64,000 bases of DNA from NCBI RefSeq assembly GCF_003148625.1, contig NZ_QGGO01000007.1, positions 62,001 through 126,000 on the forward strand, in the 5' to 3' direction. Shown here piece after piece: positions 17,114-24,619 of this stretch (within the stretch, counting starts at the first letter, position 1; each line of letters starts with the position of its first letter). The notes below the pieces were generated by a model, which had not been told where the DNA came from, ran no database searches, and saw only the letters and a program-made list of their open reading frames with translations. The translations under genes and the position numbers were made by a program. This DNA is from Arcicella aurantiaca. Its GTDB lineage: Bacteria; Bacteroidota; Bacteroidia; Cytophagales; Spirosomataceae.

Positions 17114-17662
17114 ATGAGTGTAGAAATAAAATATTTGAGTAAATTAAGAGATGACAAAACCTTCGTATATATTTACACAGACAGTTATAGCGAAGCCGAT
17201 TATGGCTTTATTATTGATTTCAATGAAGAGTTTTTAGTCCTTAAAAAGTTTAATGATGAAAGTTTATTTGATGGAATTTCAATTCTGAGAAGAGATAATA
17301 TTACTCGAATCAACTGGGGAGGAAATGATATTGAAAATACCTTCAAATTGATTTTCAAGAAAGAATACGAATCGGAAGTAAAAAATATCAATTTGGAGTC
17401 TATTGAAACTATTATAAAATCCGCTTTTGATAATTTTAATCATCTAACCGTCCGAATCCAAGACCTTGACAGTAGCGTTTATATTATCGGTCAATTGGAA
17501 GATATTGACGAAGAAACGTTGGTAATTAATGCTTTCGGAACAAAATCAACCTTAGATAGAAGTTTTCTAATGGTTTCCCTTGAAAATATTACCAGAGTAG
17601 ATGCAGGTGGAATTTATGAAAGAAACTTACAGATATTATTTGATAAAAAAGCACAATCATGA
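17114..17662 (+). CDS. duplicated small-barrel protein in toxin-antitoxin operon, unknown function
   Basis: 182 residues, not recognised as a named family. It consists of two copies of one fold: residues about 13-85 and 105-178 both run through five predicted strands and share an NITR(I/V)xxGG turn followed by (F/L)(K/Q)(L/I)(I/L)F. The layout resembles Sm-like or PRC-type small barrels. The ORF stops in an ATGA overlap with the antitoxin gene, so it is translationally coupled to it. It could be an accessory or regulatory subunit of the toxin-antitoxin pair, or simply a neighbour; the sequence alone does not decide. Confidence 0.75.
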   Translation: MSVEIKYLSKLRDDKTFVYIYTDSYSEADYGFIIDFNEEFLVLKKFNDESLFDGISILRRDNITRINWGGNDIENTFKLIFKKEYESEVKNINLESIETIIKSAFDNFNHLTVRIQDLDSSVYIIGQLEDIDEETLVINAFGTKSTLDRSFLMVSLENITRVDAGGIYERNLQILFDKKAQS

Positions 17663-17910
17663 GACAATTAACAATTTCAATACCTGATAATCACGCTTCT
17701 TTTTTTCTAAAAGTGGTTAAAGCCTTTGATTTCGCAAAGGTTGAAAAAAATATTAAGGTAGAAGAACCTTCTTTATCGGCTGAACAAAAGCGGATTCTTG
17801 ATGGAATTTCAGAGGCTGTAAATGAAATAAACCTACATAAACAAGGAAAAATAAAATTACAATCAGGCGATGAATTTTTGAACGAATTAAAGAGGGAGGG
17901 ATATTTATGA
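17659..17910 (+). CDS. antitoxin of RelE/ParE-type pair
   Basis: 83 residues. The N-terminus (MRQLTISIPDNHASFFLKVVKAF) is a short strand plus helix typical of small Bacteroidetes antitoxins, followed by a linker and a C-terminal toxin-wrapping tail (EFLNELKREGYL). ATG overlaps the previous stop (ATGA) and its own stop overlaps the toxin start in the same way. Identity rests mainly on position before a RelE-like gene, on size and on the tail pattern. Confidence 0.8.
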   Translation: MRQLTISIPDNHASFFLKVVKAFDFAKVEKNIKVEEPSLSAEQKRILDGISEAVNEINLHKQGKIKLQSGDEFLNELKREGYL

Positions 17911-18236
17911 CAGAATTAATTGTTACAAATTATTTTAGTCGTGAAGCTAAACCTTTGGCTAAAAAGTATCGCTCACTTGCTTCTGAAATAGTCTTACTTT
18001 TTGAATCACTCAAAACAGACCCAATTCAAGGAGATGCTTTACCGTTAGGTTGCTACAAAATTCGTCTCGCTATTGAATCCAAAGGAAAGGGGAAAAGAGG
18101 TGGTGCAAGAGTGATTACACATTTTCATATAAAAGATGATGAAATTTACCTCATCTCAATTTATGATAAATCAGAACAAGAAGACATTTCAGATAAAGAA
18201 TTATTGAGACGTTTAAAAGCCTTAGATTTGGCGTGA
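17907..18236 (+). CDS. RelE/ParE-superfamily toxin
   Basis: 109 residues. The RelE fold pattern is visible: FSREAKPLAKKYRSL helices, then a strand block with GCYKIRLAIESKGKGKRGGARVI and FHIKDDEIYLISIYDKSEQ, ending in a helix. Toxins of this class cleave mRNA at the ribosome or poison gyrase; HigB/RelE-like activity is the more likely here given the K-rich G-K-G-K-R-G-G loop, but that is inference. The stop TGA overlaps a GTG that opens the dxr frame, which would couple the toxin to an essential isoprenoid gene. Confidence 0.85.
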   Translation: MTELIVTNYFSREAKPLAKKYRSLASEIVLLFESLKTDPIQGDALPLGCYKIRLAIESKGKGKRGGARVITHFHIKDDEIYLISIYDKSEQEDISDKELLRRLKALDLA

Positions 18237-18247
18237 ACGTAAATTAT

Positions 18248-19399
18248 ATGCAAAAAAGAAGAATAGCCATTCTTGGCTCAACGGGTTCGATTGGCACACA
18301 GGCATTAGAAGTCATTGAAGCGAATCCAGATAGTTTTGAAGTAGAAATTTTAACGGCTCAAAACAACGCCGATTTATTGATTGAACAAAGTATTAAGTTC
18401 AATCCAAATTGTGTAGTTATTACCAACGAAACCCTTTATGACAAAGTTTTTACGGCTCTTTCGCATACCGACGTGAAGGTTTACGCAGGTATGAAAGCTG
18501 TTGAGGATGTTGTGCAAATGGAAACTGTTGATATGGTTTTGACCTCAATGGTTGGTTACGCAGGACTTTTACCAACGATTAAAGCCATTGAAGCAGGTAA
18601 ACACATTGCCCTTGCTAATAAAGAAACGTTAGTAGTCGCAGGTGAAATTATTACGAAACTTGCAGAAGAAAAAGGCGTAAATATCTACCCCGTTGATTCT
18701 GAACATTCGGCTATTTTTCAATGTTTGGTCGGAGAATTTCATAATCCCATTGAAAAGATAATTTTGACGGCTTCGGGTGGTCCTTTTCGTGGAAAACAAC
18801 GAGCGGAGTTAGAAACTGTAACGAAAGCTCAGGCATTAAAACATCCAAATTGGGTAATGGGAGCAAAAATTACCATTGATTCTGCCAGTTTGATGAATAA
18901 AGGTTTGGAGGTGATTGAAGCAAAATGGCTTTTTGGTTTACAAGCCTCTCAAATTGAAGTCGTAGTGCATCCGCAGTCAATCATTCATTCATTAGTTCAG
19001 TTTGAAGACGGTTCGATGAAGGCACAAATGGGTTTGCCCGATATGAAATTACCGATTCAGTTTGCCTTGGGTTTCCCCAACAGACTAAAATCAGATTTTC
19101 CACGTTTTGACTTCACAAAATATCCGTCTCTCACATTTGAACAGCCCGATAAAAAAACATTTCGTAACTTGCAATTAGCTTTTGACGCAATGGAAAAAGG
19201 CGGAAATTTACCTTGTATCATGAATGCCGCCAACGAAGTAGCCGTAGAAGCATTTTTACAAGACAAAATAGGGTTCTTAGCCATGTCAGATTTCATTGAA
19301 ACTTGTATGAACAAAGTAACGTTTATTCAAAAACCAAGCATTGATGATTACGTGCAAACGGATGAGGAGACAAGACGATTTGCGAGGGAGTTATTGTAA
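18248..19399 (+). CDS. dxr: 1-deoxy-D-xylulose 5-phosphate reductoisomerase
   Basis: 383 residues from ATG 18248; a GTG at 18233 overlapping the toxin stop would add five residues. Dxr converts DXP to MEP with NADPH, the committed step of the non-mevalonate isoprenoid pathway. Visible hallmarks: NADPH motif ILGSTGSIGTQALEV at the N-terminus, ALANKETLVVAGE (about 120), metal and substrate site PVDSEHSAIFQCL (about 147) and ASGGPFRG, SASLMNKGLEVIEA. In many Bacteroidetes dxr sits directly before rseP; here a toxin-antitoxin locus separates them. Polyprenyl synthase, which uses the products, is at 32.6 kb. Confidence 0.96.
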   Translation: MQKRRIAILGSTGSIGTQALEVIEANPDSFEVEILTAQNNADLLIEQSIKFNPNCVVITNETLYDKVFTALSHTDVKVYAGMKAVEDVVQMETVDMVLTSMVGYAGLLPTIKAIEAGKHIALANKETLVVAGEIITKLAEEKGVNIYPVDSEHSAIFQCLVGEFHNPIEKIILTASGGPFRGKQRAELETVTKAQALKHPNWVMGAKITIDSASLMNKGLEVIEAKWLFGLQASQIEVVVHPQSIIHSLVQFEDGSMKAQMGLPDMKLPIQFALGFPNRLKSDFPRFDFTKYPSLTFEQPDKKTFRNLQLAFDAMEKGGNLPCIMNAANEVAVEAFLQDKIGFLAMSDFIETCMNKVTFIQKPSIDDYVQTDEETRRFARELL

Positions 19400-19436: not shown

Positions 19437-19697
19437 ATGACAATACAAGCATCATCTCAGACACAGGCACTTATTTTGTTATTCAAAACAATGCCAGAAC
19501 AGACTCAAAAAGAGTTTACTGAATGGATTGTTGAACACCCAAAAACTTGGGAGCATTCAACCGAAGAAGAAAATAGCAACTTTTGGTTAGCTGCTTCGTC
19601 AGATGCTTTGGAGCAACTTTGGGATGACCCCGCAGAAGATGTTTGGGACGAAATCTATAAAAAACAGAAAGCGGATGGCAGATTACAAGCAATTTGA
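19437..19697 (+). CDS. antitoxin of MazF/PemK-like locus
   Basis: 86 residues from ATG 19437 (an upstream in-frame start at 19341 lies inside dxr). The protein is acidic and helical, with PEQTQKEFTEWIVEH, a SSDALEQLWDDPAEDVWDEIY segment and a basic tail; this S-x-x-x-L-x-x-x-W-D-x-PxxDxWD pattern is common in antitoxins preceding PemK-type toxins in Bacteroidetes. The ATG of the broken toxin (19675) overlaps its 3' end by 23 bases, the usual arrangement. Confidence 0.8.
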   Translation: MTIQASSQTQALILLFKTMPEQTQKEFTEWIVEHPKTWEHSTEEENSNFWLAASSDALEQLWDDPAEDVWDEIYKKQKADGRLQAI

Positions 19698-20070
19698 TAT
19701 TATTTGGGTGTAATTTCCGTTTTCAGATAAACCAAATACATCCAAGAAACGACCCGCAATAATTGTTAGTAATGAAGAGAGTAACCTTTTAGATAATGAT
19801 TTATTGGTTTGTCCAATTACCTCAAAGATTAGAGAAGATAGCTTTGCTGTATTACTAACAAAAGAAATGCTTTCAAGTTCATTAGAAATAGAAAGTGAAG
19901 TTCGTTGTAATAAGGTAACAACAATAAGAAATAATTTGATAATTTCTAAAATTGGAGAGTTATTACCAGAATATTACGATAAAATTTTGGAAAAAATTAA
20001 GAGTGCTTTTGATAATTTTTCAATAGATTTAAGTGAAAAGTCCATTAAAGCAAAACATATCGACAGTTAA
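19675..20070 (+). pseudogene. MazF/PemK-family toxin broken by one in-frame stop
   Basis: Reading from ATG 19675 gives MADYKQFDIIWV, then TAA at 19711, then in the same frame FPFSDKPNTSKKRPAIIVSN, LVCPITSK, and SEVRCNKVTTIRNNLIISKIG to a stop at 20068. The pieces together are a complete PemK/MazF toxin: D-I-I-W-V-x-F-P-F, K-K-R-P-A-(I/L)-V-S-N and the C-terminal K-I-G are family hallmarks. One C-to-T change (CAA or CAG to TAA/TAG type) explains the break. The rest of the frame is undamaged, so the loss is recent, or a reading error or readthrough should be considered. Confidence 0.85.
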
Positions 20071-20157
20071 AAAATAATATTTAATAAATTTCATTAAGTG
20101 AAGATTGAAATATTGGGATAAAACTCACAATTCACTCATTCACAATTCACTCAATAC

Positions 20158-21504
20158 ATGGAAGGTTTAGTAATGGCGGGACAGTTGATTTTAGCACTGT
20201 CAATTTTAGTTAGTTTACACGAATTTGGGCATTATATCACAGCAAAGTGGTTCAAAATGCGAGTAGATAAATTTTATCTTTTCTTCGATTTTTTATTCCC
20301 TGTTCCTACGGTTTTAAATTTTGCTTTGTTTAAAAAGAAAGTTGGCGAAACTGAATATGGTATCGGTTGGTTTCCGTTGGGTGGTTACGTTTCTATTGCA
20401 GGAATGATTGACGAAACGCAAGATGCGTCTAAATTAGCCACTGTTCCAGAACCTTGGGAATTTAGAGGCAAACCTGCTTGGCAACGTCTTATCGTAATGT
20501 TGGGTGGTATCATTGTTAATATTATTTTAGGAATCCTTATTTTCTGGGGTATTCGTTATCATTCTGGAAATAATTATGTAACGCTTTCTGAAGTAAACAA
20601 GCAAGGTATTTTTGCAGGAAAAATTGCAGAAGAAGTTGGCTTCAAAACTGGCGATAAGATTTTAAAAGTAAATGGCAATGTTCCCGTGCGTTTTGATGAA
20701 GTTACCAAACTAATCATGGAAGATGATGCCAAATATACCATCGAACGCAATGGCGAAACCAAAGAAATAACCTTACCAAAAGGCTTTTTAGATAAATTAG
20801 CTGATGGGAAAAAAGGAGAATTTATCCAAGAAGGTTTACCATTTGACATTAAAGAAGTTGCCGAAAATGAAGGCGGTGGCGGTGCTTTTAAAGCAGGTTT
20901 GAAAACAGGAGATAAATTTGTGAATGTTGCAGGAAAGCCTGTAAAATTCTATCAAGAATTAGCTCCAATCTTGATGGATAACAAAGGCAAAACTGTCTCA
21001 GCTATCATCGACAGAAAAGGTGCTTTAGATACTTTGAAAATTAGTGTTTCGAGTGAAGGTAAAATTGGTATCAGACCAAATTCATTGTTGAAAGATACTC
21101 ACGAAGATTATACCATTGGACAAGCATTCAACGCTGGTTTTGTAGAAGCATTTGCCGTTGTTGGAACAAATTTGAAAGGTTTTAAAAAGATTTTCAAAGG
21201 AGAAGTTTCTGCTTCAAATGCCGTGAGTGGTCCAGTGGGAATTGCAAAGATTTTTGGTGGAAAATGGGATTGGGCTAATTTCTGGTTTTTAACTGGGTTA
21301 TTATCCATGTCATTAGCATTTATGAATGCACTTCCAATTCCTGCTTTAGATGGTGGACATGCTCTTTTCTTGATTTGGGAAATGATTACGGGTAAAACGC
21401 CTTCAATCAGAGTGCAAGAAATTGCACAACAAGTGGGAACGGTGATTCTTTTAGGATTAATGGTTTTTGCTTTCGGAAACGATATTTTCAAGATTTTTAA
21501 GTAA
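20158..21504 (+). CDS. rseP: RIP metalloprotease, site-2 protease
   Basis: 448 residues. The zinc motif HEFGH is at residues 21-25 in the first membrane helix and the second active-site motif NALPIPALDGGH near 391-402, as in RseP/MmpA. Two PDZ-like domains occupy roughly 130-320. The enzyme cleaves membrane-bound anti-sigma factors or signal peptides within the bilayer. A pair of ACAATTCACTCA repeats lies in the short leader. The gene is separated from dxr by a decayed toxin-antitoxin locus and is followed by two hairpins (21573-21650). Confidence 0.95.
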   Translation: MEGLVMAGQLILALSILVSLHEFGHYITAKWFKMRVDKFYLFFDFLFPVPTVLNFALFKKKVGETEYGIGWFPLGGYVSIAGMIDETQDASKLATVPEPWEFRGKPAWQRLIVMLGGIIVNIILGILIFWGIRYHSGNNYVTLSEVNKQGIFAGKIAEEVGFKTGDKILKVNGNVPVRFDEVTKLIMEDDAKYTIERNGETKEITLPKGFLDKLADGKKGEFIQEGLPFDIKEVAENEGGGGAFKAGLKTGDKFVNVAGKPVKFYQELAPILMDNKGKTVSAIIDRKGALDTLKISVSSEGKIGIRPNSLLKDTHEDYTIGQAFNAGFVEAFAVVGTNLKGFKKIFKGEVSASNAVSGPVGIAKIFGGKWDWANFWFLTGLLSMSLAFMNALPIPALDGGHALFLIWEMITGKTPSIRVQEIAQQVGTVILLGLMVFAFGNDIFKIFK

Positions 21505-22265: not shown

Positions 22266-23273
22266 CTAACCCCTAATTATAGCCAATAAATCGGCTTTAA
22301 TTCCTTGCCAATCTTGGTTCAAATTTAGTGTTTCAACCCTGATTGTGTGTCCTTCGTGCGTATAGGACAAACTCAACGACTTTTCAATAGTTGGATAAAT
22401 CAAAATCCCCTCAGCTTGTGTATCTTCTTGATTTTTCAAATAAGCAAAAAGTTGATACAAATGTGGCGAATGGATTTTTTCTGAATGATAGTATTGCTGT
22501 AAAGTCTGGGTATAATATTTAGCATCAATTATCAGTTTTTTACCATTCAATTTCATGGAAATATCAGTTTGCATTTTTGGTAAAAAATGAGCGTTTTCTC
22601 CCGCCATTTTCCAATGTAAATCTTCTCGGTAAACTTTGGCTTCGGGAACTTCAATTTTATAAAAATTACGAATAAACTCTTCAAAAACCTTCGCCATTTG
22701 CCTTTCATTTTGTACAAAATCCCTAAAAGTAAATCGTCCTTCTATTTGGTTAGGTATTAAATTTTGATAGATTAACTCGCTGATATTCAATAGAAAACGG
22801 TATAGTATGTTACTTTTGGGTGTATTAATATGTCTGAAAATACCTTCTGAAATCTTAATTTCACTTACTTCATTCATTCGCCACAAAATTGACTTGATTT
22901 CATGTCTTAATTTTATGTCTAATTCCTCCGTTCTGTAAAGATTTACGAATGTTGTTTTCAGTATTTGATTAGGTAAAATGTCAATCGAAAGTTCATCATA
23001 TTCACAAACAGCAAGTCCTTTTACAAATAAATTCCTTTTGAAAGATTGACTAATATCTAATTTACCTTTTATACCCTGATAGGTTTCCGTTTGCAATAAA
23101 TATTGTTGTTCTAAACCTCTTTTTAATAATGTTTTTGAACCACTTAGAAATATTTTTGTCAATAAATTGAGTAAATCAGGCGATTCATCGCTTGAAATTT
23201 CAATTAAATCTCTTTCCTCCAACCTGTTCCAAGCGTAGCAAAGTAAATAATATATGTTTTGAATTGGAATCAA
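22266..23273 (-). CDS. mcrC: McrC, nuclease subunit of McrBC restriction system
   Basis: 335 residues. The N-terminus (IPIQNIYYLLCYAWNRLEE) is the standard opening of McrC proteins; the nuclease core of the PD-(D/E)xK class is at about 235-258 (TDISMKLNG, then LIIDAKYY), followed by HLYQLFAYL. McrC is recruited by McrB hexamers and cuts DNA carrying modified bases. The start is TTG 23273, directly preceded by an in-frame stop, 14 bases after mcrB ends, so the two are co-transcribed and probably translationally coupled. The C-terminus is complete. Confidence 0.92.
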   Translation of the reverse strand: MIPIQNIYYLLCYAWNRLEERDLIEISSDESPDLLNLLTKIFLSGSKTLLKRGLEQQYLLQTETYQGIKGKLDISQSFKRNLFVKGLAVCEYDELSIDILPNQILKTTFVNLYRTEELDIKLRHEIKSILWRMNEVSEIKISEGIFRHINTPKSNILYRFLLNISELIYQNLIPNQIEGRFTFRDFVQNERQMAKVFEEFIRNFYKIEVPEAKVYREDLHWKMAGENAHFLPKMQTDISMKLNGKKLIIDAKYYTQTLQQYYHSEKIHSPHLYQLFAYLKNQEDTQAEGILIYPTIEKSLSLSYTHEGHTIRVETLNLNQDWQGIKADLLAIIRG

Positions 23274-23287
23274 TTATTGGGAGATAG

Positions 23288-24619
23288 TCAAATTTTTTCA
23301 ATCAACTTATTAATTTCTACTTTGGCTTTTTCTTCATTATCAAACCAATATTCTCCTAAAAGTGGAGCAATTTCCAAATTGATAATTCTTTTATACCATT
23401 TTTGTGGATTATCATTTTCATTAAAATTGGAGAAATAACTATGTCCAATTTGAAAACCCTTTCCAAGATTTCTATCATTCAAAATCTTATAGTTCAAAGC
23501 CGAAATGCGTAAGGTTATTTCTTCGGCAAATGATGCTGAAATGCCTTTCGCCATCAAAAAATCAATAAATTTTTGATTAAATAATGGTTCAAGAGCGATG
23601 AACGCAAACCTACGGCGTAAAGCGTAATCTATTATTGCCAAAGAACGGTCTGCGGTGTTCATTGTACCAATAATGTGTAGATTATCGGGTACATAAAATG
23701 GTTCAGAGTCTTTATCGCCATAAGTTAGAGGCATTTCATTGGCTCGTCCACGTTTATCAGACTCTATCAGTAGCAGTAATTCTCCAAAAATCTTACTCAA
23801 ATTTCCTCGATTAATTTCATCAATAATAAAGAAATGGTCAATTCCAGAATTACGTTGAGCTTGCCGACAAAAATCATAAAAAATACCATTTTTTAGCTTA
23901 AAACCTCCATTATCATCTGGTCTTAAACCTTGAATAAAATCTTCATAAGAGTACGATTGATGAAATTGTACCATTTTAATTCTATTATCGTCCTGTGTGC
24001 CAATTAAAGTGTATGCCAAGCGTTTGGCTATAAAAGTTTTTCCGACACCGGGAGGTCCTTGTAAAATGATGTTTTTCTTATATTTGAGGGTATCAACAAT
24101 GTCATCAAATTTATCATCTTCAATAAAAAGGTCGTTTAAGGCTTCCTTTTTTTCATAAGGAAGTAAAATGTCTTCATGTTGTAATGACTCCTTCTGTGCA
24201 TCAATCATCGCTTGAATCGCCTCAAATTCATCTTCTGTTAACTTGAATAAACTTCCTTGATTGTTTTTAAGAATTTCAGAACCTTTAAAGAAATGGATAG
24301 CTTTTAATTCCGACCAATCTATCGGTTCTGGGATTTTGTCTATCAATTTAAACGAAATAACTTCATCATGTTTTGAGTCTCGATGGAGTGGCTCTGTGAT
24401 TTCAAAAATGGCTTTTACTTGCTTAACCGGTGTAGATTCATACCCGATAAGCCAATCGCCTTTTTGCACCATTTCAAAGTTTTTATAGATTCTTCGTTTA
24501 TTCCCGAATTCATTATAAGAGGTATAATGCAAAATTTGGTCAACCTTTAATGAATTGATTGTCCAGATTCGAGGATTAGCGTTTAGCCACCAATAGTTTC
24601 GAGTTTTTCTATCTTGCAT
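23288..24619 (-). CDS. mcrB: McrB GTPase with N-terminal EVE domain
   Basis: 443 residues. Residues 1 to about 130 form an EVE domain (YWWLNANPRIWTI, then GDWLIGYESTPVKQV), a fold related to PUA/YTH that binds modified bases such as 5-methyl- or hydroxymethyl-cytosine. The rest is the McrB AAA+ GTPase: Walker A GPPGVGKTF (about 188), Walker B FFIIDEINRGNLSKIFGE (about 258), and the McrB signature MNTADRSLAIIDYALRRRF (about 320). Paired with mcrC downstream it makes a type IV, modification-dependent defence system whose specificity is probably set by the EVE domain instead of the classic McrB N-terminal domain. Confidence 0.93.
   Translation of the reverse strand: MQDRKTRNYWWLNANPRIWTINSLKVDQILHYTSYNEFGNKRRIYKNFEMVQKGDWLIGYESTPVKQVKAIFEITEPLHRDSKHDEVISFKLIDKIPEPIDWSELKAIHFFKGSEILKNNQGSLFKLTEDEFEAIQAMIDAQKESLQHEDILLPYEKKEALNDLFIEDDKFDDIVDTLKYKKNIILQGPPGVGKTFIAKRLAYTLIGTQDDNRIKMVQFHQSYSYEDFIQGLRPDDNGGFKLKNGIFYDFCRQAQRNSGIDHFFIIDEINRGNLSKIFGELLLLIESDKRGRANEMPLTYGDKDSEPFYVPDNLHIIGTMNTADRSLAIIDYALRRRFAFIALEPLFNQKFIDFLMAKGISASFAEEITLRISALNYKILNDRNLGKGFQIGHSYFSNFNENDNPQKWYKRIINLEIAPLLGEYWFDNEEKAKVEINKLIEKI

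Follow-up and report, generated by a model that had tools for sequence, protein, structure and literature searches.

In Arcicella aurantiaca, a chromosomal type II toxin-antitoxin pair that forms an accessory insertion in the interval from dxr to rseP, with a toxin of the PemK/MazF family, has very probably had this toxin inactivated: codon 13 of the toxin gene is a premature TAA. The pair lies in the window, that is, the whole stretch of 64,000 nucleotides that was analysed, to which all positions given here refer, and on its plus strand, as do all features described below unless otherwise stated. The interrupted toxin gene (19675-20070) is recognised by its PF02452 match, its relatives and their alignment; the in-frame TAA (19711-19713) is read directly in the translation, and both nearest relatives have a sense codon at this place. 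Upstream of it, an antitoxin frame of 86 amino acids (19437-19697) is open. The locus is probably best regarded as an ordinary case of a chromosomal PemK/MazF-type toxin that was inactivated recently, its antitoxin having been kept.

The toxin frame translates as MADYKQFDIIWV, followed by TAA and then by FPFSDK and the remainder of the protein. A single internal stop is present, with 118 uninterrupted codons downstream of it, in agreement with the first-pass annotation, which had described one in-frame stop at 19711 in a MazF/PemK-type toxin and no other lesion. When the stop is replaced by X, the translation matches the Pfam family PemK_toxin (PF02452) over profile positions 1-108 of 109, with an E value of 7.4e-20 and 71.6 bits against a curated cut-off of 23.1. 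Because of this match and of the full-length alignment of the two nearest relatives, the frame cannot be regarded as a chance one. The further claim that everything apart from the stop matches a complete toxin holds for the conserved core and fails for the last 15 or so residues, which are unconserved and vary among relatives, the gene coding for 131 residues here and for about 124 or 115 in the two nearest relatives.

The catalytic residues of the family are still encoded 3' of the stop. In particular, alignment and structure-profile matching place R26 (codon 19750-19752) and T49 (codon 19819-19821) on the catalytic Arg25 and Thr48 of Bacillus MazF, and both belong to the nine invariant columns of an alignment of 13 toxins. 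The profile of this alignment, searched against solved structures, retrieves MazF/EndoA chains with an E value of about 5e-8, R26 and T49 sitting on R25 and T48 of 4me7; the toxin used as a single sequence had no match among the solved structures. As stated in the available part of PMC7354611, Arg25 and Thr48 are the key catalytic residues of Bacillus cereus MazF, and a change in either severely reduces its activity. The window toxin thus resembles the MazF/PemK/EndoA mRNA interferases (PF02452; for example B. subtilis EndoA/MazF, 4mdx and 4me7) in its full-length family match and in the corresponding places of the catalytic Arg and Thr, and differs from them in being broken at codon 13 and in its score with the NCBIfam MazF equivalog model, its sole NCBIfam match, which at 27.6 bits is far under the 120-bit cut-off. 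PADLOC, queried with toxin and antitoxin, returned no match for either. Judging from its family, the toxin would formerly have been an mRNA-cleaving ribonuclease.

The layout is that of a type II pair, with a small antitoxin gene placed directly upstream of the toxin gene and overlapping its start by 23 bases (19675-19697, from the ORF coordinates), and the same gene order is found in the two nearest relatives. The 86-residue antitoxin frame, drawn from the ORF list and supported by its relatives, contains no stop, as had been noted before. It belongs to no Pfam or NCBIfam family, and a MazE-type assignment finds no support, there being nothing in Pfam (E values up to 1) or in NCBIfam (E values up to 0.1) that it matches; four related antitoxins scanned against Pfam likewise had no family match. 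Antitoxin-like frames at other toxin loci (L012-L017 and L068-L070) share a C-terminal, W-rich acidic motif and differ in their N-terminal parts. Of the two genes of the pair, only the antitoxin is still able to make its protein: since the toxin stops at codon 13, the locus is a remnant and not a working pair.

Relatives were sought in 222 genomes of the family, an E value of 0.001 or better being taken as a match, and this family-wide search found the toxin in 84 genomes and the antitoxin in 12. The closest toxins, each about 65% identical to that of the window, belong to G042, an Arcicella metagenome-assembled genome, and to G121, a member of another genus. Both align over the same length as the window toxin and have a sense codon at position 13, the single TAA of the G121 toxin being its natural gene end. 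Their antitoxins are 80% (G042) and 69% (G121) identical to that of the window. A scan of the genome contigs with the antitoxin had found no relative, and its relatives were then sought by whole-genome searches. Phage or plasmid cargo is not indicated, as no relatives were found in viral contigs or in plasmid records, the collections covered by this search.

The position of the pair is variable within the genus. An interval comparison was made across eight genomes, the window genome (G000) included, in all of which dxr was found and the interval to rseP could be read. The borders of this slot are, on the left, dxr (DXP reductoisomerase, 18245-19399) and, on the right, an rseP-like M50 peptidase gene (20158-21504). 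The toxin-antitoxin pair occupies the slot in two of the eight genomes (the window genome and G042), one kind of gene does so in three (G040, G043 and G045), and no gene is present in the other three (G041, G044 and G039). The product of the G040 gene matches the Pfam family Uma2 (PF05685, E value 1.8e-33), and the copies of G043 and G045 are named Uma2-like by sequence similarity to it. In G041, the nearest genome as measured by dxr (98% identical), the interval is short, contiguous and devoid of genes. Consequently, the pair is best described as accessory, inserted into a slot whose content turns over. As G042 carries its pair at the same dxr-rseP position and the DNA to the right of it is similar to that of the window, the insertion would either have been inherited from a common ancestor or exchanged along with its surroundings.

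The neighbourhood contains other elements. Just upstream of dxr, a second small pair (17659-18236) consists of an 83-amino-acid frame plus a toxin of the RelE family (PF06296, E value 2.9e-7). G041 and G045 have the whole pair, and in G042 a match of 29 residues to the first gene is all that is seen. As this pair differs among genomes, both sides of dxr are variable within the genus. A short repeated stretch (CACAATTCACTC-like) at 20119-20150 has near-identical copies on several other contigs, several of them clustered on contig C11. On the minus strand, 22266-24619 encodes a McrC-like protein (PF10117, E value 5.9e-35) and a protein with EVE and AAA_5 domains, which together look like a McrBC-type restriction system.

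With regard to age, no second lesion is seen in the 118 codons after the TAA. In simple simulations of neutral decay over 118 codons at 0.1 changes per site, a second lesion arose in 70%, 90% and 98% of trials with indel rates per substitution of 0, 0.05 and 0.1, respectively. Moreover, relative-rate counts reveal no significant excess of unique sites on the window branch, with 39 in the window against 31 in G042 for the toxin (P 0.40) and 12 against 19 for the antitoxin (P 0.28). Since a second lesion is missing and no such excess is observed, these data point to a recent lesion, as the first-pass annotation had proposed, without assigning it a date. The stop codon itself is likely to derive from a single base change. 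That exactly one base was involved is uncertain, because the codon next to it likewise departs from those of the relatives and because the toxin body has possibly been exchanged by recombination.

This last possibility stems from the uneven similarity between the window genome and G042, which resemble each other through the antitoxin and up to toxin codon 11, the resemblance being much weaker beyond. The drop in similarity to this same-genus copy, visible both at informative sites and at third positions, falls within 19692-19707, a possible recombination junction. Specifically, up to 19707 there are 51 sites grouping the window genome with G042 and 31 for the other two groupings combined; from 19708 onward the corresponding counts are 29 and 70 (Fisher P 1.2e-5). 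The best break falls at 19692-19698, and none of 2000 permutations gave one of equal strength. Third positions behave similarly, their identity falling from 57/79 in the antitoxin and 10/11 in toxin codons 1-11 to 49/100 in toxin codons 14-113. The window toxin body is no closer to that of G042, a member of the same genus, than to that of G121, a member of another, and in a protein tree of 11 toxins G042 and G121 group together (support 88/85) with the window toxin outside. With the toxin body no closer to its own genus, a plain account of a single base altered in a gene passed down by descent may be incomplete. One could therefore propose that the toxin body was gained by recombination at the antitoxin/toxin junction and that the stop then silenced a mismatched toxin, which the resident antitoxin was unable to hold. 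The signal is carried by only three sequences, however, and constraint differs between antitoxin and toxin. In addition, the flanking genes themselves show third-position identities of 252/383 (dxr) and 254/448 (rseP), and when these flanks are pooled for comparison, the toxin body lies only mildly below them (P 0.024) and the antitoxin only mildly above (P 0.053), contrasts that are mild enough for unequal constraint or chance to account for them. An antitoxin tree, in turn, leaves window, G042 and G121 without a resolved order; any of the copies may be the exchanged one, and the mismatch is putative. For these reasons, the exchange of the toxin body is treated as a lead, and the scenario in which it preceded the stop is considered unlikely. 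Slightly less likely again is its most elaborate form, in which the junction would be a recombination joint where toxin bodies are swapped next to an antitoxin that stays in place, and in which the nonsense codon would be the answer to the mismatch, leaving a chimeric fossil.

An error of sequencing or assembly, with the pair in fact intact, is improbable to a still greater degree. It would fit with the good preservation of the frame, in which the TAA is the sole lesion, and with the state of the genome, which is a draft of 70 contigs. Isolated substitution errors are rare in drafts of such quality, though, the assembly being reported as 99.88% complete with 1.5% contamination, and the difference of the neighbouring codon from the relatives means that the local sequence is more than an intact copy with one wrong letter.

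The least probable account is that the stop is real and the toxin is nevertheless produced, through readthrough, suppression or a start further downstream. It can appeal to the fully kept frame after the stop and to the TTG at 19804, but that frame resumes in the same phase, so that the stop would not be circumvented by one frameshift. The suppressor whose search had been recommended did not emerge: none of the genome's 35 tRNA matches, all covered by ARAGORN, has a stop-reading anticodon, in a set that is incomplete in that it contains no tRNA-Ile. Within the same set of matches, there was no sign of a change of genetic code. As for the TTG, which the first-pass annotation had put forward as an alternative start, the residual frame that it opens (19804-20070, 88 amino acids, from the ORF list and Pfam) still matches PF02452 from profile position 39 onward (37 bits, E value 4.4e-9); it begins at residue 44 and lacks the first 43 residues, including R26, the counterpart of the Arg25 required for full MazF activity, and would not yield a complete toxin.

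If the toxin was inactivated by the nonsense codon, as preferred here, ribosomes translating its gene would release a 12-residue peptide with neither catalytic residue, while the antitoxin would still be produced without its toxin partner. Within the window genome, 19675-20070 is the only PF02452 match, and no other toxin of this family is present; any protective role that the antitoxin may have would therefore need to be directed at incoming genes. The lesion is presumably young, and the antitoxin would either be neutral or offer some slight benefit when related toxins enter the cell.

The frequency of this kind of decay was assessed in a survey of 98 toxin loci, the window included (38 in a first batch and 60 in a second), from which roughly two dozen weaker toxin matches were left out. 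One locus (L021), near a contig end and with an upstream part that is not toxin-like, was excluded, and another (L109), with a possibly shortened end, was not counted as broken; in the second batch, many rows were flagged for a profile match starting a few residues in and were judged by start codons and frame lengths. At six of the 97 assessable loci the toxin frame is broken, namely in the window and at L013, L025, L069, L090 and L134, and in all six an antitoxin-like frame upstream is open. The other five, which belong to other genomes and have differing antitoxins, are distinguished from the window by the nature of the damage: frameshifts near codons 9-10 (L013 and L025), two in-frame TGA codons (L069, whose frames recur at L076 in Raineya orbicola), a stop near codon 50 (L090), and an early stop together with a frameshift (L134). 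In the first 38 loci, three of the four broken toxins (L009, L013 and L025, the window included) had their lesion at about codons 9-13, which suggested a clustering near the toxin start. This idea was post hoc and was abandoned when the 60 further loci added L090 and L134.

Disruption of the toxin frame while the antitoxin stays open is a common way for such pairs to decay and has been well described before. In the available part of PMC7354431, a parE pseudogene is reported to leave a lone ParD in Caulobacter and a frameshifted yacB to keep its antitoxin in Shigella. Chromosomal pairs are said to decay by deletion or nonsense mutations in the accessible text of PMC7167474, whose reference list includes the ccdO157 paper, and an excerpt of PMC10790755 describes orphan antitoxins as abundant in E. 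coli, with anti-addiction listed as a possible role. As far as these partial sources go, the parE, yacB and ccdO157 cases share with the window a broken toxin and a kept antitoxin, and they differ from it in toxin family or lesion, the window toxin being of PemK/MazF type, belonging to a member of the Bacteroidota and having one nonsense codon as its lesion. A literature search combining Arcicella with toxin-antitoxin yielded no paper.

In conclusion, the locus adds one more clean example of the decay of a chromosomal toxin-antitoxin pair in which the toxin is lost first and the antitoxin is retained. Its added value is mild and mainly comparative: as the same gap holds the pair, a different gene or no gene in closely related species, turnover can be traced across the genus. 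Further genomes could also serve to test whether, as is possible, the toxin body was swapped while the antitoxin was retained.
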